From: Bacteroidetes bacterium GWF2_40_14
GTDB taxonomy: Bacteria; Bacteroidota; Bacteroidia; Bacteroidales; UBA932
Direction of reading: 5' to 3'
NCBI GenBank assembly: GCA_001769195.1
Contig: MEOK01000038.1
Coordinates: 135,020 to 199,019 of the forward strand
DNA: 64,000 bases
This document shows positions 5,716 to 27,040 of the stretch, piece after piece. Both the position numbers and the translations under genes were made by a program. The notes beneath the pieces are model-generated. The model saw only the letters and a list, made by a program, of their open reading frames with translations, ran no database searches and had not been told where the DNA came from. The stretch's first letter is position 1. Each line of letters starts with the position of its first letter.

Positions 5716-7105
5716 TACCGGCTTTGTATACAGCCATTGCACGCAATCGTGCAGTTGTGTGATCTACAATGGGTCTTGGATATTCCGATGGATTGTCGAA
5801 TTCCGGAACCCATTTTCTAATATAAATATTATCAGGATCAAATTTCTTTGTCTGTAATTCGGGGTTGAATATTCTGAAATATGGAGCAGCATCACATCCG
5901 CAGCCAGCTGCCCATTGCCAGTTTCCATTGTTTGCAGAGAGATCGTAGTCAAGAAGTTTTGCGGCAAAATAACTCTCCCCGATTTGCCAGTTGATAAGCA
6001 GATGTTTGGCAAGGAAACTTGCAGTAATCATTCTCACCCTGTTATGCATGAATCCTGTCTGGTTAAGTTCCCGCATTCCTGCATCAACAATTGGATAACC
6101 TGTCTCTCCCTTGCACCATTTTTCCAGTTCCCTCTCGTCATTCCTCCATGAAATATAACTGTACCTCCTTTTAAATGGACCATCTGCCGCATATGGAAAA
6201 TGATATATGACTGACTTGAAAAACTCACGCCATATCAACTCTCCAAGCCAGGTGTTGTTTAGCTCAATTGCTGAGCGGACAAGACCGCGAATGCTGATTG
6301 TGCCGAATCTTATATGTACACTTAGACGTGTAGTTCCGTTCTCATTAGCGGGATCGTTCCTGGTATTGTGGTAGCCTGCAATTATTGAATTTATAATGCA
6401 CGGTTTTGTGAAAATATTTCCAGATGGGATAAACCCTATTTCATCGAGGGCTGGCAAGTTTTTGAATAGTTTAAGAGAACCATATTCAAAGCGGTTCAGT
6501 TCTGACAATTGTTGCATGTCAGATGACATTACAAAGTTATCTGTCTGCTCTTCGGATGGCCAATATTTCAGATGGGTTACAGGCTCATTATTTAGTTTAT
6601 TGAGCCATTGTCTTGAATATGGTGTGTATACTGTATATGGTTGTCCATCAGGTTTAAGAATATCGTCTTTTGAGAAAATAACCTGATCTTTAAAGCATTG
6701 AAAAGTTATTCCTCTGTTTTTGAGCAGCAAGGCAATTTTCACGTCTCTCTCTACAGCATATGGTTCATAATCATCGTTGCAGAAAACTGAGGAGACATCG
6801 AATTCAGAAGATATGAATTCAAACGCAGCTTCCGGGGCATCATAAATATACAGAATTGAGCCCTCTCCGGAACAAAATCCTTTTAACTGGGAGATTTCCA
6901 TTTCCAGTCGTAAAAGGGCCTGATGTATGAAATCTACCCTTCTGTCGCGTCTGTCCGGGAGTTGATTGAGGATTGTTGTGTCGAATATGAAAAGAGACAA
7001 TACCCTTAACCCGGATCTTAGTGCCTCATACAAACCTCGGTTGTCTTCCAGCCTGAGATCGTTTCGAAACCAGAATATGTTGATTTTTTCCTTTAGCATA
7101 ATCAT
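5702..7105 (-). CDS. phr: Cryptochrome/photolyase family protein (deoxyribodipyrimidine photo-lyase)
   Basis: 467 aa, 'IFWFRNDLRLEDNRGLYEAL', 'WREFF', 'GYPIVDAGMRELNQTGFMHNRVRMITASFLAKHLLINW'. Confidence 0.96.
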   Translation of the reverse strand: MIMLKEKINIFWFRNDLRLEDNRGLYEALRSGLRVLSLFIFDTTILNQLPDRRDRRVDFIHQALLRLEMEISQLKGFCSGEGSILYIYDAPEAAFEFISSEFDVSSVFCNDDYEPYAVERDVKIALLLKNRGITFQCFKDQVIFSKDDILKPDGQPYTVYTPYSRQWLNKLNNEPVTHLKYWPSEEQTDNFVMSSDMQQLSELNRFEYGSLKLFKNLPALDEIGFIPSGNIFTKPCIINSIIAGYHNTRNDPANENGTTRLSVHIRFGTISIRGLVRSAIELNNTWLGELIWREFFKSVIYHFPYAADGPFKRRYSYISWRNDERELEKWCKGETGYPIVDAGMRELNQTGFMHNRVRMITASFLAKHLLINWQIGESYFAAKLLDYDLSANNGNWQWAAGCGCDAAPYFRIFNPELQTKKFDPDNIYIRKWVPEFDNPSEYPRPIVDHTTARLRAMAVYKAGITEL

Positions 7106-7635
7106 GCCTTAAGATAGGAGAGGTCCTTGCCATCTGCCTCTCCCTCCCGTATCTGAGTTGAAGAGACATCTATCTCAGGAGCATCAATAAGCCTGGCACC
7201 ATACCTCTTGCACAGCTCTTCACCATCGAACCCGCTGCGGGGATATACCCATACCTGATACTCTTTAAGAAGATTTTCCCAGTGTTTCCATTGTTCGATA
7301 ATTGCAAGATTGTCTGCGCCGATTATAAGAATAAATTCATTATGAGGTTCCAGAGAACTTAATTTCCTTAATGTGGAGATAGTGTATAAGGGGACAGGCA
7401 AAGAAAATTCAATGTCCGATACAACTACCTTATTTCCAAGATGCCGTGCGGAACACCTTACATGTTCCAGCCTGTCGGCACTGTTGTTAACCTGTGCTTT
7501 ATCCTTTAAGGGATTCTGAGGGCTCACAACCAGTCTTAGCTGATCTATCTCACCATTGTCCAGAAGGTATTTACATATGGCTATGTGGCCTATATGCAGA
7601 GGGTTGAATGATCCAAAAAAGAGAGCAACACGCAT
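7102..7635 (-). CDS. nadD: Nicotinate-nucleotide adenylyltransferase
   Basis: 'VALFFGSFNPLHIGHIAICKYLL', 'ISSTQIR'-like 'VSSTQIREG'. Confidence 0.95.
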   Translation of the reverse strand: MRVALFFGSFNPLHIGHIAICKYLLDNGEIDQLRLVVSPQNPLKDKAQVNNSADRLEHVRCSARHLGNKVVVSDIEFSLPVPLYTISTLRKLSSLEPHNEFILIIGADNLAIIEQWKHWENLLKEYQVWVYPRSGFDGEELCKRYGARLIDAPEIDVSSTQIREGEADGKDLSYLKA

Positions 7636-7650
7636 TTATTTAATTTTAGA

Positions 7651-8223
7651 CTATGGTTTTTCCGAGTAAAAATTTTCTACAAGCTTTTCTGCCTCTTTCA
7701 GGCAAATGTCGAGGTTCTCATTTACCAGAACCCTGTCGAAATATTTGGCAAATGTTAACTCCTCATTTGCTTTTGCCACTCTTTTGTCAATAGTGTCGGC
7801 AGAATCTGTGCCTCTTGCCAGCAATCTTTCCCTGAGAATATTAATGGACGGGGGCTGTACAAAAACAGCAAGCGCACTGTGGCCGTACAACTTTTTCAGG
7901 TTTACCCCACCTTTTACATCAATGTCAAAGACAACGATCTTACCTGCCAACCATATCCGTTCAACTTCGCTCTTTAGTGTGCCATAGAATGAACCTGAGT
8001 ATACCTCTTCATACTCGACAAAATTGCCAGCTTCTATCCTTTTAACGAAATCTGTTTTGTCAAGAAAAAAATAGTCATGGCCATTCACCTCTTCTCCTCT
8101 GGGCAAACGCGATGTTGCAGAGACAGAAAACTCCAAAAATGGATATTTGTCAAGCAGATGGCGCACTATCGTTGTTTTTCCGGCCCCGGATGGAGCGGAG
8201 AATATCAGAACCTTGTTATTCAT
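7651..8223 (-). CDS. gmk: Guanylate kinase
   Basis: 'LIFSAPSGAGKTTIVRHLLDKYPFLEFSVSATSRLPRGEEVNGHDYFF'; ATG at 8223 chosen. Confidence 0.97.
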   Translation of the reverse strand: MNNKVLIFSAPSGAGKTTIVRHLLDKYPFLEFSVSATSRLPRGEEVNGHDYFFLDKTDFVKRIEAGNFVEYEEVYSGSFYGTLKSEVERIWLAGKIVVFDIDVKGGVNLKKLYGHSALAVFVQPPSINILRERLLARGTDSADTIDKRVAKANEELTFAKYFDRVLVNENLDICLKEAEKLVENFYSEKP

Positions 8224-8989
8224 ATTGATCACGTTCGCTTTTAACTTTAGACAAATCATTTAAAAACCGGGCAATTTTTTCAGTACAGCATTTTAAGAAT
8301 CTTTCACCTTTTTCAGGAGTTGCACCTATAGGATTCCCAACACCGGTATCATCTGAAATATATATCCACCTTCTTGGAGTCCACGCCCATTTTTCCTTGA
8401 ACCCATCAATCGCAAATTTCCGCTCTTTGCCATCACCTGCCTCCTCAAGAGGAAGTACTAGATCAGGGGCAACATACTGCATACATGATGTCTCAAGCTC
8501 TCCTGCATGGTCGCCCGCCTCCTTGAAGAACCCATCAGGTTTACATGCTGTCCACCAATTTATTGCGCTCATGAGAATATGCGGATATTCAAGAGAGAGT
8601 TCCCTGATTATGGGAACGAATGCGTTACCACCGTGAGCATTAAGTATGACTAACTTTTTTATGCCATGCTTGTCCAGGACCTCAAGAATATCTCTTACAA
8701 TAGCTATTTGAGTGGACGGTCTCATGTTCATACAGAGCTTCACCTCCATCTGTCCGGTATTAACACCATATGCAATCGACGGCAGAACAATACAGCCTGC
8801 ACCATTCCTATTTGCAATTTCCGCAGCATCAGCCGCAACTTTCTCTGCTAAAATGGTATCAGTTCCGTAGGGAAGATGATAGTTATGTGCCTCTGTGGCT
8901 CCCCATGGTAAAATTGCTATGTTAAATGACTCATCTTTAACTGTTTTCCAGTTAGATTCCTGTAATACATGAGGTTTCATAATTTTCAA
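8216..8989 (-). CDS. Creatininase family protein
   Basis: 'ILPWGATEAHNYHLPYGTDT', 'ILNAHGGN', 'GDHAGELETS' metal-binding motifs. Confidence 0.92.
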   Translation of the reverse strand: MKIMKPHVLQESNWKTVKDESFNIAILPWGATEAHNYHLPYGTDTILAEKVAADAAEIANRNGAGCIVLPSIAYGVNTGQMEVKLCMNMRPSTQIAIVRDILEVLDKHGIKKLVILNAHGGNAFVPIIRELSLEYPHILMSAINWWTACKPDGFFKEAGDHAGELETSCMQYVAPDLVLPLEEAGDGKERKFAIDGFKEKWAWTPRRWIYISDDTGVGNPIGATPEKGERFLKCCTEKIARFLNDLSKVKSERDQYE

Positions 8990-8997
8990 TTTATAAG

Positions 8998-9005
8998 CAA
9001 AGTTA
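8998..9005 (-). promoter_or_regulatory. -7 box (TAACTTTG) for creatininase-gmk-nadD-phr run
   Basis: CAAAGTTA on plus strand, reads TAACTTTG on minus strand just upstream of 8989. Confidence 0.5.
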
Positions 9006-9016
9006 GATTTTTATGT

Positions 9017-9024
9017 TAACTTTG
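9017..9024 (+). promoter_or_regulatory. -7 box (TAACTTTG) for fba
   Basis: TAnnTTTG match upstream of the ATG at 9059. Confidence 0.5.
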
Positions 9025-9058
9025 CCGCGAAAAGGTTTAATAATAAATTTTAGATATT

Positions 9059-10021
9059 ATGATTTCATACAAAGAACTTGGTTTAGTAAACACAAAAGAA
9101 CTATTTGCCAAAGCAGTAAAGGGCGGGTATGCAATTCCTGCTTTTAACTTTAACAATATGGAACAGATGCAGGCGATAATCTCGGCCTGTGTAGAGACAA
9201 AATCTCCGGTCATTCTGCAGGTATCAAGTGGTGCAAGAAAATATGCCAATCAGACACTACTACGTTATATGGCTCAGGGAGCAGTTGAATATGCCAAAGA
9301 GCTTGGTGCAAACATTCCCATAGTACTTCACCTTGATCACGGCGATACTTTTGATCTCTGTAAATCATGCATAGACATGGGTTTCTCTTCTGTCATGATA
9401 GACGGTTCCCACCTTCCTTTTGACAAAAACATAGAGCTGACAAAACAGGTTGTAGAGTATGCTCATGCTCATGATGTTTCTGTAGAGGGTGAACTAGGAG
9501 TTCTGGCAGGCGTTGAGGATGAAGTATCTGCAGAACACCACACATATACACAACCCGAAGAGGTAGAAGAGTTTGTGAAAAAGACAGGTGTGGACTCTCT
9601 AGCGATTTCAATTGGAACTTCTCATGGAGCTTTCAAATTTAAACCGGGACAGAATCCGGAAATCCGATTAGATATTCTTAAGGAAATTGAGGTGAGAATA
9701 CCAGGGTTCCCAATAGTACTCCATGGTTCTTCAAGCGTGCCTCAGGATATCGTAGCAGAAATAAACAAATATGGTGGCAAACTAAAGGATTCAATAGGAA
9801 TTCCTGAGGACCAGCTAAGACAAGCTGCAGCCAGTGCCGTATGCAAGATTAATATCGACTCAGATGGTCGTCTTGCTATGACTGCTGCAATAAGAAAAGT
9901 TTTTGCTGAGAAGCCTGAAGAGTTTGACCCGCGTAAGTATCTTGGACCGGCACGTGACGCATTAAAGGCTCTTTACAAACACAAAATTCTGAATGTTCTG
10001 GGTAGTAACGACAAAATGTAG
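9059..10021 (+). CDS. fba: Class II fructose-1,6-bisphosphate aldolase
   Basis: 'GGYAIPAFNFNNMEQMQAII', 'VLHLDHGDTFDLCKSCIDMGFSSVMIDGSHLPF'. Confidence 0.97.
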   Translation: MISYKELGLVNTKELFAKAVKGGYAIPAFNFNNMEQMQAIISACVETKSPVILQVSSGARKYANQTLLRYMAQGAVEYAKELGANIPIVLHLDHGDTFDLCKSCIDMGFSSVMIDGSHLPFDKNIELTKQVVEYAHAHDVSVEGELGVLAGVEDEVSAEHHTYTQPEEVEEFVKKTGVDSLAISIGTSHGAFKFKPGQNPEIRLDILKEIEVRIPGFPIVLHGSSSVPQDIVAEINKYGGKLKDSIGIPEDQLRQAAASAVCKINIDSDGRLAMTAAIRKVFAEKPEEFDPRKYLGPARDALKALYKHKILNVLGSNDKM

Positions 10022-10050
10022 TTCATTCTTACAATCAGATATATAAATGG

Positions 10051-10078
10051 CGGCTGATTTTTCAGCCGTTTTTTTTGT
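10051..10078 (+). terminator. fba terminator
   Basis: CGGCTGA-TTTT-TCAGCCG followed by T8. Confidence 0.9.
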
Positions 10079-10090
10079 TGAAATATTTAT

Positions 10091-10110
10091 TAGTTAGTCT
10101 AAACTAACTA
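10091..10110. promoter_or_regulatory. Putative MarR operator palindrome
   Basis: TAGTTAGT-CTAA-ACTAACTA, perfect 8-bp arms, overlapping the -7 box TATATTTG (10109-10116) 4 nt before the ATG. Confidence 0.65.
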
Positions 10111-10120
10111 TATTTGCTGA

Positions 10121-10531
10121 ATGAATAATCTGATAAATATAATCGCAAGACTCTCCGATATTATGGGCCGTATGGAGGACAGGGCCAAGGAGCAATATAA
10201 CACAACAGGCTTGTCGCTGACTCAGATGCATTATCTGGAAACAATCGGCCATCTCAACAATCCCAGCCTAACAGAATTGTCAGCTGCACTAAATCTTTCT
10301 AAGCCAACTGTCACAGTTGCAATTGACAAGCTGATAGAAAAAGGTTGCGTTTACAAGGTACGCTCGGACAACGACAGAAGGAGCACCCACCTTCACCTGA
10401 CAGAAAACGGCAGGTTATTGAATCAAATGCATGATTTTGCACATCAATCCATTGCTGAACTTTTTACGAAAAATCTATCACATAAAGAGACTGAGCAACT
10501 TATAGAAATTATTGACAAAGCTATCAGATAA
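10121..10531 (+). CDS. MarR family transcriptional regulator
   Basis: 'LTQMHYLETIGHLNNPSLTELSAALNLSKPTVTVAIDKLIEKGCVYKVRSDNDRRSTHLHLTENG' wHTH. Confidence 0.95.
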   Translation: MNNLINIIARLSDIMGRMEDRAKEQYNTTGLSLTQMHYLETIGHLNNPSLTELSAALNLSKPTVTVAIDKLIEKGCVYKVRSDNDRRSTHLHLTENGRLLNQMHDFAHQSIAELFTKNLSHKETEQLIEIIDKAIR

Positions 10532-20167: not shown

Positions 20168-20545
20168 TTATTGTCGTTTTCTTTTATCAGGATAACTTGT
20201 AAGGCTTGAGATGGTCATGACAAGACCCATTACAAGGGAGAGAGAGGCAATAATCAAACCGACAACCATAAGAAGGCTGCCGGTTTCTACATCTTTATAT
20301 TCTGAAAGAAAGGAAAAAAGGAAGAAGAGACTTAACGCTACACCAATGGCCCCTAACGATGCTCCTGCAAATTTGTTCTGAAACACAAACTGGATGAAAA
20401 CCAGCATTGCAATTACAAGTGCTATATAATTTATTGGTTCGTTTTCTGAATAGGTGTTATAAAACCAAAATATCAGAATTGAAATATAAAAAATATAAGG
20501 AAGCTGAAAGAGCAGGAACCTTTTAATATTTGAGCAGTTTTTCAT
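20168..20545 (-). CDS. Hypothetical membrane protein
   Basis: 125 aa, about four hydrophobic segments, co-directional between qmoC-like gene and atpD. Confidence 0.6.
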   Translation of the reverse strand: MKNCSNIKRFLLFQLPYIFYISILIFWFYNTYSENEPINYIALVIAMLVFIQFVFQNKFAGASLGAIGVALSLFFLFSFLSEYKDVETGSLLMVVGLIIASLSLVMGLVMTISSLTSYPDKRKRQ

Positions 20546-20594: not shown

Positions 20595-21641
20595 TTATAC
20601 AACTGTTAATTTTGCAAAATACATTGCAAACGATCTGTATAAGAAGTGTGTCCATTTGCCAAATGGTACAATAATCAAAGCCCATTGTGCCAAAACCGCA
20701 AGGTGGAAAAGATACAACCATTTGTTGTTTTCAAGAATGTCAAGGTCAATAAAAAGCCTCACAGCAAAAGCTGTAACACCCATCAGAAGAAGCCAGATTA
20801 CAAAGAACCAGTCCGATGGTTGGGAGTGTTTGCTCACCTCTTTGTTTTTCTTAACCCTTCCAAGAACGAAATCGAAGGTAACAACAAAAATCACTGCGCT
20901 TACAACATAACCAAGTACAATTACGAATATACTTTCTGATCCAAACCAATCCAGAAAAACAGTAGTAAAAAGCAAGGTGAGGTATCCAATTACCAGAATG
21001 AAATGTTCAAACCACCTTTTTTGGTTGTCGTCACAGCCAAGTGCCCTCTTTTGGGTAAACATATGGATTAAGAACTCTCCAAGACTTTTTATATATTTCA
21101 TAAAACTGACATTCTTTCCTGGTTTTATTATTGTAAAATACCACATCCTCGCAATATTTGGTATCAGTATAACTGCAAAAACACCAGCAATAGCCAACAT
21201 TTCAAACATGTGGCCTGAATGCATGATAACCTCCATGTCAAACTTCTCGTAGGCAGCAAAGACCACAACTCCAATTGCTACAAGAACCATCGCTATAATT
21301 GTTGCAGTCAATGATTTGTAAAGATACCCCGACAAACCTGTCCAGTCATATTTAGCCATTAGCCAGCGTCTAAGAGACATCATCAGTTCACCGGGATTAG
21401 CCGTTTGCGGACAATTTGTCGAACATTCCCCACAATAATAGCAAAGCCATGGTTTTAGAGATGCGGCAATCTCCTCCTCATTTCCTGTTTCGCTAAGACG
21501 CACCATAGATCGGGGGAATGAATCCTCTCCTGTAGATAGGGAGCAGACAGCAGTACATGTACCACAATTGTAGCATGAACCGAACTCAGTAGCACCATAT
21601 TTCTTAAGTTCCTTGCCAAATTTTGGATTAATTCTGCTCAT
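20595..21641 (-). CDS. QmoC-like fused HdrC/HdrE: 4Fe-4S dicluster domain plus respiratory cytochrome b-like membrane domain
   Basis: 'CYNCGTCTAVCSL' and 'CYYCGECSTNCPQTANPGELMMSLRRWL' dicluster, then 5-6 TM segments (NarI/HdrE-like). Confidence 0.85.
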   Translation of the reverse strand: MSRINPKFGKELKKYGATEFGSCYNCGTCTAVCSLSTGEDSFPRSMVRLSETGNEEEIAASLKPWLCYYCGECSTNCPQTANPGELMMSLRRWLMAKYDWTGLSGYLYKSLTATIIAMVLVAIGVVVFAAYEKFDMEVIMHSGHMFEMLAIAGVFAVILIPNIARMWYFTIIKPGKNVSFMKYIKSLGEFLIHMFTQKRALGCDDNQKRWFEHFILVIGYLTLLFTTVFLDWFGSESIFVIVLGYVVSAVIFVVTFDFVLGRVKKNKEVSKHSQPSDWFFVIWLLLMGVTAFAVRLFIDLDILENNKWLYLFHLAVLAQWALIIVPFGKWTHFLYRSFAMYFAKLTVV

Positions 21642-21918
21642 TTTTCTTTAGTTTATATGTGAAATACTCATCATTATCATCAACTGAACCTACCGATACA
21701 AATCCAAATTTCACCAAAGACATAACAAGAAACATTGTCTTATCTCTTGGTATTCCTGTTCCTGTACTAAGTTGGGCAATAGTTCTCTCTCCCAGCCCAA
21801 GTTCTGTCAATATAGATTTCTTATCTTTGTTGAACTGTTTCAAATTCTCTTTAACCTCGTCGGAAACCTTTCTCCTGTCGCGAAGTATTTTAACTGTCAT
21901 TATTTTTTCTGTAGACAT
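21628..21918 (-). CDS. Small winged-helix-like protein in Hdr/Qmo-like operon
   Basis: 96 aa 'ILTELGLGERTIAQLSTGTGIPRDKTMFLVMSLVKFGFVSVGSV' wHTH-like; overlaps the next gene by 14 bp. Confidence 0.6.
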   Translation of the reverse strand: MSTEKIMTVKILRDRRKVSDEVKENLKQFNKDKKSILTELGLGERTIAQLSTGTGIPRDKTMFLVMSLVKFGFVSVGSVDDNDEYFTYKLKKNEQN

Positions 21919-21930
21919 AAACTCTCCTTA

Positions 21931-23646
21931 TTATTTAGCCAGTACATCAATCATACTCTCCATCTCTTTATTGGTAAAAGAAATGAGTTCTATGGAGTCC
22001 GAAGGACAAACAGGAAGACACATTCCGCAACCTTTGCACGTACTTGTATTAATAGTTGCAACACTCTTTCCCCCATCATCAATCATCGAAACAGCATTAA
22101 ACGGACAAGCTTCACTACATGCATTGCACCAGTTGCAGCTCGATTTGTCAACATATGCAATTATTGGTTCTAGTTCAAGTTCTCCTTTGCTCACAAACGA
22201 ATGCGATTTTGCTGCTGCAGACATTGCAGAATTAACAGATTCCATTACATTTTTTGGTCCCTGACATGTTCCTGCAATAGTAATCCCGTCAATAACGGTC
22301 TCAACCGGACGGAGTTTCATGTGAATCTCATTGAAAAATTTGTCTCTGCCTTTAGGTAGTTTGAATAAAGAACCTAAACTTGTATCTTTATCCGGAACCA
22401 TTCCTGTTATAAGAACAACCAGGTCTGCAATTGCCTCTATCTCTTTTTTCTCAGAAAGCAGGTCGCCAGCTTTTATAGATATAGCACCATCATATTCAGT
22501 TACAACCGGTGGCTTCTTGTCCAGAAACTGAATATAAATATCTCCGACTCTGTTAGACTCTTTGTAAATCAACTCTTGCTTTCCGTAAGTCCGTACACCC
22601 TTGGTAAAATGATAATTTTGAATTTCCGGGTATTTGTGTTTCACATCAAGTGAAGCCTGAACAGCCGCTGTGCAACAATAGCGAGAACAATATTTGTTGT
22701 CACCTTTTGCCTGCCGGCTACCAACGCAATATATGTATGCAATGGAACCTATCTTTTTGTCATTATAAATAAGCTTTTCATTGCTGTTTCTGAGAAGCTT
22801 TCTGAACTGAGGAAGGGTTATAACATTTTTAATCTGATTATAACCAAACTCTCCATCTGCAGGAGTATATGAGTTAAAACCAGTAGCAACCAGTATGGAA
22901 CCTACATTTATATCCTTTTGGGATTGACCCTGAGACCCGGAAATATTCACTTTTAACTTAAAGTCTCCAATGTTTCCTGAATAGCCAACAACCTCAGAGT
23001 TTGTCATTAGTGTAATGTTCTTCTCGTTTTTAATATCCTCTTCCAAAATATTCAGAAGTTCTTTACCGGTTAACTGTTCCGGACTTATTGTGTCAAGTTC
23101 GTGAAGTTTTCCGCCAACTCTTGAATCTCTTTCAATCAGGAACACCTCGTCCTGCATTCTGGAAAGGGATATAGCTGCCTTCAGGCCGGCAACTCCGCCT
23201 CCAATAACGGCTACAGAACGTTTTGATTCGATAACAATTGGTTCAAGCGACTCTGCCAGACGCGCCTTTGCAATGGCAGCTTTAACAAGCAAAATGGCCT
23301 TTTCTGTAGCTCCGGTTTTATCGTCTGAATGTGCCCAGGATGCCTGTTCACGGATATTTGCATGAACATAATTATATTTGTTGAGACCTGCACGTTCACT
23401 AACTGCACGGAAGGTTGATAGATGAAGCTTTGGAGAACAACTGGCAACAACAATACCGCTCAGGTTATTCTCTTTTATATCTGTATCCATATCATTCTGG
23501 TTTGAATCACCACATGCAAACATTGTAGTCTTTGCCAGAATGACGCAATCCTCGTCCTTTATTGAATCTTTAACCTTTTCTATGTCGACATAGTCGGAGA
23601 TGTTTCCGCCACAGGCACATATATATATTCCAAGTTTTTTTTTCAT
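21931..23646 (-). CDS. HdrA-like (QmoB-like) FAD/iron-sulfur protein
   Basis: 'IYICACGGNISDYVDIEKV', 'ANIREQASWAH', 'VAVIGGGVAGLKAAI', two C-terminal 4Fe-4S motifs CNWCNACSEACP and CKGCGMCLPVCP. Confidence 0.9.
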   Translation of the reverse strand: MKKKLGIYICACGGNISDYVDIEKVKDSIKDEDCVILAKTTMFACGDSNQNDMDTDIKENNLSGIVVASCSPKLHLSTFRAVSERAGLNKYNYVHANIREQASWAHSDDKTGATEKAILLVKAAIAKARLAESLEPIVIESKRSVAVIGGGVAGLKAAISLSRMQDEVFLIERDSRVGGKLHELDTISPEQLTGKELLNILEEDIKNEKNITLMTNSEVVGYSGNIGDFKLKVNISGSQGQSQKDINVGSILVATGFNSYTPADGEFGYNQIKNVITLPQFRKLLRNSNEKLIYNDKKIGSIAYIYCVGSRQAKGDNKYCSRYCCTAAVQASLDVKHKYPEIQNYHFTKGVRTYGKQELIYKESNRVGDIYIQFLDKKPPVVTEYDGAISIKAGDLLSEKKEIEAIADLVVLITGMVPDKDTSLGSLFKLPKGRDKFFNEIHMKLRPVETVIDGITIAGTCQGPKNVMESVNSAMSAAAKSHSFVSKGELELEPIIAYVDKSSCNWCNACSEACPFNAVSMIDDGGKSVATINTSTCKGCGMCLPVCPSDSIELISFTNKEMESMIDVLAK

Positions 23647-23660
23647 CTCATTATGTCTGT

Positions 23661-24956
23661 TTATTGATTAAGATAGCATATAGCCTCTGTTGAGGCTGAC
23701 CCGGCAGATAGTATTGAATCCGGAATGTCCTTGGGCCCGGTGGCAGTTCCTGCAACAAAAACACCCTCGATTGTAGTTTTTGCAGGGCTCAGCAAAGGAT
23801 CACTCTGCTTAACAAATTGCAGTGAATCAAGTTCCAGTTTATGGGTAGTAAAGAGACCGGCAGGTTCGCTGTTTGGCTTGACACCTACCGAAAGTACAAC
23901 CAGGTCATGATCGGCTTCCTTAAGTTTTCCTGATGCAAGGTCTTCATATCTTAGTGTCAGGTTGCCATTCTCTTTTTCTGAAATTCTGCCAATCTTCCCT
24001 TTTACAAAACGCACACCCATTCCTGCAGCCTGTTCGTAAAATTCTTCGTAACCCTTGCCATAAGCCCTAATATCAATGTAATATATTGTAATGTCTGCCA
24101 TAGGAAGCGCTCCCATTAGCAGTTGGGCTTGTTTTATTGAATACATACAGCAAATTTGTGAACAGATAGGGTTTCCTAATGAGTCGTCTCTCGATCCTGC
24201 GCACAAGACATAAGCAATTTTATCCGGAACTTTGCCGTCACTTGATCGTAAAATTGTATGAAAAGGACGGGTAGGGGCAAGCAGTCTCTCCATCTGCATT
24301 GATGTTATTACATTTTTGGCCTCTCCATAATTGTATCTTGGAACATTAGAAGGGTCATAAAGTTTGAATCCTGTTGCTACTATGGCTGTTTTTGCAGTTA
24401 TTACATAATCACGCGGCTCTTGTGTGAAATCTATACAACCAGGGGGACAGACCTTTTCACATGCACCGCAAAGTGTGCAATTTTCTATATCAATTGCAGC
24501 TACTTTAGGACTGGCAATACTGAATGGTATGTAAGCGGCCTTACGCCCAACCAGATTATATTGAAACTGATCCTTAACTATTACCGGACAAGCCTCTTCG
24601 CATAGCTGACATGCTGTGCAATCTTCGGCAACAACATATCTCGGTCTTCTGGTAACCTTTGCTACAAAATCATGTTCTCCCCTCTTTTCTACAGATGTAA
24701 GGTCACTTTCAGTAAAAATTGTTATGTTTGGGTGGCGTGATATTTCTGAAACCTTTGGTGTTGTGATACATGCAGAACAATCAAGTGTTGGGAATACCTT
24801 GCTGAGCATAATCATCTTACCACCTAAAGAGAGTCTTTTCTCAATGATGATTACCTTATAACCGTTGCTGGCGAGATTCAGTGCAGCCTCTCCACCTGCA
24901 ATTCCTCCTCCAATAACCAGTGCATCAAACGATAATGTGGTTGGCTCTTTTTGCAT
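23661..24956 (-). CDS. HdrA-like (QmoA-like) FAD/iron-sulfur protein
   Basis: 'ALVIGGGIAGGEAALNLASNGYKVIIIEK', 'FPTLDCSACITTPKV', CTACQLCEEACP and CTLCGACEKVCPPG. Confidence 0.9.
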   Translation of the reverse strand: MQKEPTTLSFDALVIGGGIAGGEAALNLASNGYKVIIIEKRLSLGGKMIMLSKVFPTLDCSACITTPKVSEISRHPNITIFTESDLTSVEKRGEHDFVAKVTRRPRYVVAEDCTACQLCEEACPVIVKDQFQYNLVGRKAAYIPFSIASPKVAAIDIENCTLCGACEKVCPPGCIDFTQEPRDYVITAKTAIVATGFKLYDPSNVPRYNYGEAKNVITSMQMERLLAPTRPFHTILRSSDGKVPDKIAYVLCAGSRDDSLGNPICSQICCMYSIKQAQLLMGALPMADITIYYIDIRAYGKGYEEFYEQAAGMGVRFVKGKIGRISEKENGNLTLRYEDLASGKLKEADHDLVVLSVGVKPNSEPAGLFTTHKLELDSLQFVKQSDPLLSPAKTTIEGVFVAGTATGPKDIPDSILSAGSASTEAICYLNQ

Positions 24957-24960
24957 AATT

Positions 24961-25356
24961 CTAATTTTCCGGTTTTATTAGTAATTCATTAAAACTTTTG
25001 ATTTGTTTTACAAAAGATTCGCTACATACAGAACAAATCGCAGCCATTCTAAGTCTTGCAGGTTCCAGCCCTTTTTCTTTCATCATTATGTGGGTTCTTT
25101 CCACAATAGATCCGGTTTTCTCTATGCAGCTCTCTCCAAAAGAGCAGTCACTGCCATCTGCGGCTATAAACACACCATCGAACCCCTTTTCAAAAGCTCT
25201 CATTATCCACTTTGGCTTAATCCCGCTTGAACATCTGATTGCTATAGTGTATACCTGAGGAGGATAGTGTAATTTTAAAAGGCCCGCCATATCAATGGCG
25301 GGATCAGAAATTTTCTCAGTTGAGAAGACCAGGATTTTTGCACTCCTTTTATTCAT
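24961..25356 (-). CDS. MvhD/FlpD-like hydrogenase iron-sulfur subunit domain protein
   Basis: 131 aa 'YTIAIRCSSGIKPKWIMRAFEKGFDGVFIAADGSDCSFGE' MvhD-type pattern. Confidence 0.8.
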   Translation of the reverse strand: MNKRSAKILVFSTEKISDPAIDMAGLLKLHYPPQVYTIAIRCSSGIKPKWIMRAFEKGFDGVFIAADGSDCSFGESCIEKTGSIVERTHIMMKEKGLEPARLRMAAICSVCSESFVKQIKSFNELLIKPEN

Positions 25357-25365
25357 TACTAAAAT

Positions 25366-25626
25366 CTAAATCTCGTTTTTGCGCATATATATCTTATAGT
25401 AGCCATTCTCCTCAACTGTTCCAAGGTAGTCATGGCCCTGCTTGTTACACCATTTGGGTATATCAACTTTTGTTCCTTCGTCGGCAGATAGAATTTCCAT
25501 TACCTCCCCCTCTTCAATAGTACTGAGAGCCTTTTTAGCTTCCAAAAGTGGCCCTGGACATGCTGTTCCTCTTGCATCAACACTTTTTGCCACATCTAAC
25601 TTTTTTAATTCTTCAGTTGTCATCAT
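25366..25626 (-). CDS. TusA-family sulfurtransferase
   Basis: 'SVDARGTACPGPLLEAKKAL' CPxP motif. Confidence 0.93.
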   Translation of the reverse strand: MMTTEELKKLDVAKSVDARGTACPGPLLEAKKALSTIEEGEVMEILSADEGTKVDIPKWCNKQGHDYLGTVEENGYYKIYMRKNEI

Positions 25627-25656
25627 GATATTTGTTTTTTGTTTTGTTTTTTAATA

Positions 25657-26223
25657 TTATATGAATAGTTGAGCGGCACTCTCTCCTGCGTCGGTAACAA
25701 ATGTTGCTGCTCCAGCAAAAGAGAGATGAGGGTAATCTATAAGCTCCTCTTTTTTGAAGCCCATAAGACCCATAGACATTTCACAAACTATAATCTCTAT
25801 TCCAAGTTCTCCAGCTGTCTTGAACATCTCATCCAAAGAGAGAACGTTTTGCTTTTTCATAAGATATTTTATCATCATCGGACCCATTCCGGCCATATTC
25901 ATGTTTGATAATTTGAGCTTGTCTTTTCCCTTAGGAAGCATAATGCCAAACATCTTTGAGATAAAATCCTTGCCCTTTGCGCTCTTCTTCTTATCTCTAA
26001 GTGCAGAAAGTGCCCAGAATGAGAAGAAAATCTTGACTTTTGTGTCCATTGCTGCAGCTGCAATGGAAATTATCATTGTTGCAAGTATTTTATCCAGATC
26101 GCCTGAAACACAGGCAATGGACAGTTGGTCCTTCCTGCCATCCTGTAATTTAGTAACCTTTTTTTGCAGCTTGTCAACCTGTTGCTGAAGTTGCTGAATT
26201 TGTAATTGTAGTTCTTCTTGCAT
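25657..26223 (-). CDS. DsrE/DsrF/DrsH-like (DsrE2-type) family protein
   Basis: N-terminal coiled coil, 'SIACVSGDLDKILATMIISIAAAAMDTKVKIFFSFWAL', 'IIVCEMSMGLMGFKKEELID'; internal Met at 26223 as start. Confidence 0.85.
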   Translation of the reverse strand: MQEELQLQIQQLQQQVDKLQKKVTKLQDGRKDQLSIACVSGDLDKILATMIISIAAAAMDTKVKIFFSFWALSALRDKKKSAKGKDFISKMFGIMLPKGKDKLKLSNMNMAGMGPMMIKYLMKKQNVLSLDEMFKTAGELGIEIIVCEMSMGLMGFKKEELIDYPHLSFAGAATFVTDAGESAAQLFI

Positions 26224-26312: not shown

Positions 26313-26328
26313 TGTGATATGAATCACA
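26313..26328. promoter_or_regulatory. Crp/Fnr-type binding site
   Basis: TGTGATATGAATCACA: perfect TGTGA-N6-TCACA (6-bp arms TGTGAT/ATCACA) in the divergent intergenic region. Confidence 0.75.
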
Positions 26329-26362: not shown

Positions 26363-27040
26363 ATGGAAAATAAATGTGCTTTCTGTGATTATAAGTCTGC
26401 TGCAGCCAGGAAACTAACTATCGATGAGATAGATAAATTGTCTGTTAACTGCCTTACAGTAAAGTTCAAAAAAGGAGATTCTATTATCAGGCAGGGTACA
26501 TATTCAACAAATGTTGCATATCTTAAGAGTGGACTTGTAAAGATTCATATTGACGGGCCCTATCACGTGCAAGTTGTAAGAATTGTAAAACCTTCCAGCT
26601 ACCTGGGCCTCCCGACAACATTCGGTGACAAGATAAATCAGTATTCAGTAACAGCAATTGAAGAGTCGGAGGTTTGCTTTATCGATATTTCACTTTTCAG
26701 GAAGCTTCTGGCTACTAACCCCGACTTCAGCAATCAGATTCTTATTGAACTTTGCAAGGGGGAGTTGGAATCTTATCAGAAATGTGTCAACCGCACACAA
26801 AAGCAGACAAGGGGCAAACTTGCAGATGTGCTACTTGATTTTGCTGACAATATTTATCATTCTGACATTTTTCCTGTTCTAATAAATCAAGAAGATATTG
26901 GCAATCTGGTTGATGCTTCAAGAGAGAGTGTGAGTAGAGTCCTTAGTGAGTTCGTAAAAGATGGCATTCTAAAAATCTCTGGCAGAAACATTGAGATTAT
27001 AAACAAAAATACCTTAAAACAAATAAGTGCTAAAGGGTGA
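26363..27040 (+). CDS. Crp/Fnr family transcriptional regulator
   Basis: cNMP-binding-like N-term, HTH 'INQEDIGNLVDASRESVSRVLSEFVKDGIL'; N-terminal CxxC (KCAFCDY). Confidence 0.95.
   Translation: MENKCAFCDYKSAAARKLTIDEIDKLSVNCLTVKFKKGDSIIRQGTYSTNVAYLKSGLVKIHIDGPYHVQVVRIVKPSSYLGLPTTFGDKINQYSVTAIEESEVCFIDISLFRKLLATNPDFSNQILIELCKGELESYQKCVNRTQKQTRGKLADVLLDFADNIYHSDIFPVLINQEDIGNLVDASRESVSRVLSEFVKDGILKISGRNIEIINKNTLKQISAKG

Follow-up and report, generated by a model that had tools for sequence, protein, structure and literature searches.

Within a 64,000-nucleotide stretch of contig MEOK01000038.1 from Bacteroidetes bacterium GWF2_40_14 (the window, part of a 3.36 Mb genome that is 97.5% complete), we analyzed an operon of seven genes on the minus strand (20595-26223). 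Gene identities were assigned by Pfam and NCBIfam profile searches of the window proteins, and all seven tightly packed genes named in the original prediction, which had been made from the sequence, were found with the expected identity, position and strand. From the DsrE2-type gene to the QmoC-like gene the intergenic gaps are 30, 9, 4, 14, 12 and -14 bp, and the genes are, in this order:

25657..26223, minus strand: DsrE2-type sulfurtransferase, 188 amino acids (aa); PF13686 (DrsE_2), 152.9 bits; no predicted transmembrane (TM) helix; one invariant Cys, C147
25366..25626, minus strand: TusA sulfur carrier, 86 aa, CPGP motif, Cys23; PF01206, 87.0 bits
24961..25356, minus strand: FlpD/MvhD-like protein; PF02662, 98.4 bits; altered invariant Cys set C42, C71, C77, C108, C111
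23661..24956, minus strand: first HdrA-like protein with FAD and 2x[4Fe-4S], 431 aa, in the QmoA position; HdrA2 model, 478.7 bits
21931..23646, minus strand: second HdrA-like protein with FAD and iron-sulfur (FeS) clusters, 571 aa, equivalent to QmoB minus its FlpD domain; HdrA2 model, 470.4 bits
21628..21918, minus strand: winged-helix (wHTH) subunit, 96 aa; AlphaFold2 (AF2) model with a predicted local distance difference test (pLDDT) score of 88; no Cys; invariant acidic wing DDxDE
20595..21641, minus strand: QmoC-like HdrC-HdrE fusion with 2x[4Fe-4S] and a cytochrome b-type domain of six TM helices; HdrC-like N-terminus from Pfam, helices from TM prediction

The operon was also correctly described as lacking HdrB: Pfam detected no HdrB/CCG domain in it, though CCG proteins do exist in the genome, all of them encoded elsewhere.

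The QmoC-like protein was used to scan bacterial genomes, which returned 123 relatives; 80 of these, nearly all from Bacteroidota, were kept, and the following counts refer to loci whose contig reaches far enough. The wHTH protein was present in 74/74 (separate or fused), the second HdrA in 70/70, the first HdrA in 58/58, FlpD in 55/55, TusA in 53/53 and a DsrE-family gene in 50/50. Since the seven genes keep their order in every sufficiently long contig among these 80 independent loci, the arrangement is not due to chance, and this neighborhood survey bears out the proposed association of TusA and DsrE with the Hdr genes. In the DsrE slot stands the DsrE2 type (188 aa) or else a DsrE of about 140 aa, and some loci add a third DsrE of about 125 aa. 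Another sample, 393 genomes of the same bacterial order assembled without regard to TusA, yielded 45 QmoC-like orthologues at an identity of at least 60%, with TusA within 8.5 kb in 38 of them; most of the seven without a nearby TusA lie near a contig end. Of 100 listed free-standing TusA genes in this sample, 57 adjoin a QmoC-like gene.

Certain loci carry additional sulfur-related neighbors. In five of them (L055, L061, L068, L094 and L102), the operon is preceded by a Porin_O_P gene and by genes for three rhodaneses that are secreted or lipoproteins, while in two others a gene resembling class V aminotransferases/cysteine desulfurases, a likeness read from sequence only, stands beside the DsrE gene (L175, 1381-2607; L178, 15678-16913). 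Two TusA-linked operons, facing each other, occur on one contig at L173 (G602:C7), one plain and one with an HdrA carrying an NAD(P)H module, and genome G277 (L111, L112) likewise has two.

The original prediction of two HdrA-like FAD/FeS proteins next to an FlpD holds as to gene content but is corrected in one respect. FlpD aligns to residues 645-768 of the HdrA2 model, the second HdrA to the stretch that precedes them, and the two together therefore represent one QmoB/HdrA2 split in two. In alignments of the relatives, the FeS-ligand cysteines of both HdrA proteins are invariant or nearly so, and the C252, C265, C269 and C270 pattern of the presumed flavin-proximal cluster is retained. The first HdrA of the Petrimonas type is about 940 aa long and contains an inserted GltD/NfnB-like NAD(P)H module (PRK12771, 494.7 bits; Fer4_20; full Pyr_redox_2).

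No match in Pfam or NCBIfam was found for the 96-aa protein. Its AF2 model, which covers this protein alone, is a winged helix with SmtB, ArsR and MarR as nearest folds, in keeping with the wHTH-like label given to it earlier. A role as free regulator of the operon is nevertheless ruled out by the finding of 18 relative loci in which the second HdrA carries the wHTH domain as its C-terminus, together with the Cys-free sequence and the invariant acidic wing (D80, D81, D83 and E84). Because of this fusion we consider it a subunit of the complex, and from the fusion and sequence features we read it as a structural docking subunit.

Among the sulfur-handling proteins, TusA both matches PF01206 and has the invariant CPxP cysteine that marks the family (C23, in 59 sequences), while C60 is kept in 81%. 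The genomes of the window organism, Petrimonas sp. IBARAKI and Bacteroidales CF each encode a single TusA, which is located in this operon. Longer open reading frames (ORFs) of about 780-880 aa with a TusA domain were encountered in G296:C36 and G297:C11, near L131/L132, and in about 30 genomes of the order; the same ORF in Labilibaculum matches a pyridine nucleotide-disulfide oxidoreductase model, and it is probably a fused persulfide reductase. The DsrE2-type protein has an invariant C147 (42 sequences aligned) and matches PDB entries 3pnx (7.8e-26) and 2qs7. It passes PF13686 but misses the cut-off of the equivalog model for DsrE2 of the A. vinosum type (65.5 vs 210 bits), and the two TM helices of that type were not detected in it by hydropathy. 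FlpD differs in sequence comparison from both the hydrogenase and the Qmo type: the N-terminal CxxC and GC residues of the hydrogenase type are lost, and C77 and C108xxC111 are found instead. In the QmoC-like subunit the eight FeS cysteines, C203, H144, H213 and H332 are invariant (80-81 sequences), the three histidines being candidate heme b ligands.

The resemblance to Qmo noted in the original prediction stands for the modules, i.e. two HdrA-type flavoproteins and an HdrC-HdrE membrane fusion without HdrB, but neither score nor phylogeny places the operon in QmoABC. The QmoC-like protein reaches 147.6 bits on the qmoC equivalog model NF038018 (cut-off 300), on which a canonical QmoC of the same class scores 370.9 bits. 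In the trees, the first and the second HdrA of TusA-linked loci each form a clade of their own (bootstrap 100/100 and 100/99, respectively), so that neither HdrA falls within AprAB-linked Qmo; both clades are set apart from the hydrogenase-linked as well as the AprAB-linked group, with a tool warning of long branches between groups. TusA- and hydrogenase-linked subunits are intermixed in the QmoC-like tree, both far from AprAB-linked Qmo, and in all three trees the operon subunits are split from the latter by fully supported branches. The operon further departs from QmoABC in having no AprAB, a QmoB split into HdrA and FlpD, an added wHTH and a TusA/DsrE partner.

Clusters with [NiFe] hydrogenase, FlpD, HdrA, a QmoC-like protein and HdrA were found at nine loci of the same bacterial order (L113, L115, L117, L166, L169, L171, L172, L174 and L179). 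They share FlpD, two HdrA and the QmoC-like anchor with the operon, but have hydrogenase in the place of DsrE-TusA, no visible wHTH, the canonical FlpD Cys motif and separate HdrA clades; apparently, these Bacteroidota clusters encode H2:menaquinone complexes, possibly bifurcating ones. As hydrogenase stands where DsrE-TusA does, TusA would occupy the slot of the redox partner. At L177 (G595:C57, 2252-9441), AprB- and AprA-like genes, identified from their sequences only, immediately precede a QmoABC-like set in a genome of this bacterial order, which suggests that some Bacteroidales respire sulfate or sulfite. The picture that emerges is of a putative HdrA-QmoC engine with exchangeable partners, namely AprAB, hydrogenase or DsrE-TusA.

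Other systems share parts of this architecture. The description of type II Qmo, whose function is unknown (PMC10504309), fits the operon, a likeness of description only. Methanogen HdrABC-MvhAGD and HdrA2 have the same HdrA FAD/FeS architecture and an FlpD linking to the partner, but the operon differs from HdrABC-MvhAGD by its lack of HdrB, the absence of a hydrogenase in the cluster and its membrane anchor. The YTD cluster and DsrEFH type II (PMC12998232, PMC13293266) likewise come from anaerobes and group TusA with genes of the DsrE family, but the operon has an Hdr complex, no YedE and no Dsr pathway. Membership in the YTD cluster was rejected, as there is no YedE-type transporter and the only adjacent gene of the sort is of the TauE family, in the window and 3/80 relatives. 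No description of a DsrE-TusA-FlpD-HdrA-HdrA-wHTH-QmoC operon was found in the open-access literature, subscription papers being outside the search. We rate it as a conserved variant of the Hdr/Qmo kind with a putative function.

Genome-wide tests, made family by family, agree with the earlier statement that neither AprAB nor DsrAB is visible as partner. No molybdopterin catalytic subunit (PF00384, as in Psr, Phs and Ttr), no DsrAB or other sulfite reductase (PF01077) and no AprA was found in the genomes of the window organism, Petrimonas IBARAKI and Bacteroidales CF, nor was any AprA match above the cut-off found in two Labilibaculum genomes; the window genome thus has no sulfate-reduction or reverse-Dsr pathway. 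MenA was not found in the window genome either, but a missing menaquinone pathway is ruled out by two MqnA/MqnD-family genes. The organism likely makes menaquinone via the futalosine route, consistent with the quinone originally proposed.

A complete genome carrying the operon is that of Petrimonas sp. IBARAKI, which was obtained in black, sulfide-containing colonies and whose 16S is 99% identical to that of P. sulfuriphila, a species that reduces elemental sulfur (S0) to H2S and grows better with it (PMC5940944). Petrimonas was treated as an S0 reducer in another study as well (PMC9695182). Because the usual enzymes (PF00384, PF01077, AprA) are absent from IBARAKI, no better candidate than the operon was seen for S0 reduction in Petrimonas, though it is not the sole one.

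Upstream of the operon, the following features were identified:

26313..26328, no strand assigned: TGTGA-N6-TCACA operator between the divergent genes, TGTGATATGAATCACA
26363..27040, plus strand: divergent Crp/Fnr-type regulator; Pfam cNMP_binding and HTH_Crp_2; N-terminal CxxC and C105
27052..27852, minus strand: TauE/SafE-family transporter beside the regulator; PF01925, 121 bits; an optional neighbor whose membership in the system is uncertain

The divergent Crp/Fnr protein, and not the wHTH protein, is the likely regulator of the operon. Its gene occurs in 38/46 loci, with C8 invariant and C5 and C105 at 96% in the alignment of relatives; residues 34-223 align to Fnr 51-244 (NCBIfam), where C105 falls near FNR Cys122. 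The operator is the sole TGTGA-N6-TCACA match in the window (0.07 expected), and sites of this kind, with varied spacers, are found in the intergenic regions of 33/42 relatives against a background of about 0.02 per 500 bp over all loci. Together these findings suggest a local, redox-aware Crp/Fnr switch. Elsewhere in the genome the motif recurs once, at G000:C6:4085-4100 of a 6.8 kb contig. TauE was rejected as a core part, being found in only 3/80 relative loci.

From the observed gene content, fusions, conservation of genes and cofactor ligands, and absence of competing partners, we infer every step of electron and sulfur transfer and their direction, and propose, with middling confidence, that the operon encodes a membrane-anchored, cytoplasm-facing TusA-persulfide:menaquinone oxidoreductase whose usual direction is reductive, i.e. 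a sulfane-sulfur reductase. Sulfane sulfur would be passed to and from TusA by DsrE, and TusA-S-SH would dock at the FlpD/HdrA module, where an HdrA flavin would reduce the TusA-bound terminal sulfur for release as sulfide, with the wHTH protein as a structural docking subunit. Electrons could travel in either direction along the FeS clusters of HdrA and of the HdrC domain, with a heme b/menaquinone site at the QmoC-like end; usually menaquinol would be the donor, and sulfane sulfur from S0 or polysulfide the electron sink for fermentation. In the Petrimonas type, NAD(P)H may be a further donor via the HdrA insert, a module that suits electron input. The position of TusA-DsrE in the apparent partner slot, beside an FlpD with a changed Cys set, likewise argues for this function. 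Also in its favor are the confinement of TusA to the operon in three genomes, the rhodanese, porin or cysteine desulfurase-like genes at some loci, the S0 reduction by P. sulfuriphila and the menaquinone genes.

Several observations weigh against it. Beyond the apparent cluster ligands, neither HdrA has extra conserved cysteines that would mark a persulfide site. Candidate alternative sulfur reductases, NfnB/SudB-like proteins, occur in all five genomes examined, and the window genome contains at L136 (G000:C4:27000-43000, 6886-10366) a CoADR-like flavoprotein (TIGR03385, 360.7 bits, cut-off 578.8) together with HdrC- and HdrB-like genes, possibly another disulfide/persulfide reductase. The link to a phenotype comes from one genus, and there from a relative of the sequenced strain. 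Furthermore, menaquinol (about -75 mV) alone is too weak a donor for S0 (about -270 mV) under standard conditions, so that the reaction would call for low sulfide, proton motive force or another donor of low potential, as in confurcation with ferredoxin or NADPH. The potential of the S0/sulfide couple is roughly midway between those of ferredoxin and menaquinone. The HdrA complex might be a flavin-based confurcating or bifurcating one, with TusA-S-SH as mid-potential couple between menaquinone and either ferredoxin or, through the inserted module, NADPH, a possibility that we put forward tentatively.

The same complex may also run oxidatively, with sulfide oxidized onto TusA and electrons passed to menaquinone and then fumarate, possibly also to ferredoxin by bifurcation. 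This would be thermodynamically downhill to menaquinone, and the hydrogenase-linked sister clusters have a likely electron donor in the very same slot; carriers such as Labilibaculum inhabit sulfidic water, where the new taxa of one study lack sqr with one exception (PMC11129491). We consider it unlikely all the same, given that P. sulfuriphila reduces S0, that the sulfur would have no obvious sink and that the NAD(P)H module of Petrimonas-type HdrA reads more easily as electron input. Doubtful to a greater degree is a non-respiratory role in sulfur trafficking or persulfide homeostasis, in which TusA/DsrE would serve biosynthesis or polysulfide detoxification and Hdr would keep them reduced. 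TusA does serve biosynthesis in other settings, fermenters may have to detoxify polysulfide and the operon comes with a local regulator, but a quinone-linked membrane anchor with two FAD/FeS subunits would be costly for such a role, and a patchy distribution (about 45/393 genomes of the order) is ill-suited to a housekeeping need.

Reduction of a protein heterodisulfide instead of a persulfide, with TusA or TusA-DsrE as a DsrC-like thiol/disulfide carrier, would have precedents in the Hdr complexes as classical heterodisulfide reductases and in DsrC as partner of the FlxABCD-HdrABC complex of Desulfovibrio (PMC10504309). We give it little credence, as TusA has a single invariant Cys (C60 being kept in 81%) and the HdrB/CCG catalytic subunit is absent from the operon. 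Sulfur oxidation to sulfite of the sHdr type, with export by TauE, appears very improbable. Genetic linkage of tusA-dsrE2 with hdr genes is typical of sHdr sulfur oxidizers (PMC4175335) and is shared by the operon, and a TauE gene adjoins the locus, but the defining hdrC1B1A-hyp-hdrC2B2 set with its HdrB subunits is missing, TauE is rare among the relatives and the genome has no sulfite reductase fold. The sHdr system also lacks a quinone anchor of this kind and is expected to work in the opposite direction; its lipoate-binding protein LbpA was not among the neighboring genes scanned with Pfam, no genome-wide search having been made. As for an ordinary QmoABC that works with AprAB in sulfate reduction or disproportionation, the overall modules are the same, but neither AprA nor PF01077 occurs in this nearly complete genome, QmoC falls below its cut-off and long, fully supported branches lead away from AprAB-linked Qmo. 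These absences and the trees refute the canonical Qmo and reverse-Dsr readings, and we regard the former as practically out of the question.

If the sulfane-sulfur reductase is real, a large group of fermentative Bacteroidota from sediments, digesters and sulfidic waters, in which genes for sulfur reduction have not been recognised, would gain a named system for sulfur respiration or for disposal of electrons. It would also help to explain cryptic sulfide production in these habitats, as in Petrimonas without a known sulfur-reducing enzyme. TusA would then act as redox partner to an HdrA complex linked to quinone, and a winged-helix domain would serve as a structural subunit in a complex of the respiratory type. 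Should the complex be confurcating or bifurcating, it would join the AprAB- and hydrogenase-linked Hdr/Qmo energy converters as a third class.

Lastly, a protein of 125 aa, predicted to have four TM helices and without a Pfam match, is encoded on the same strand at 20168-20545, between the operon and ATP synthase genes.

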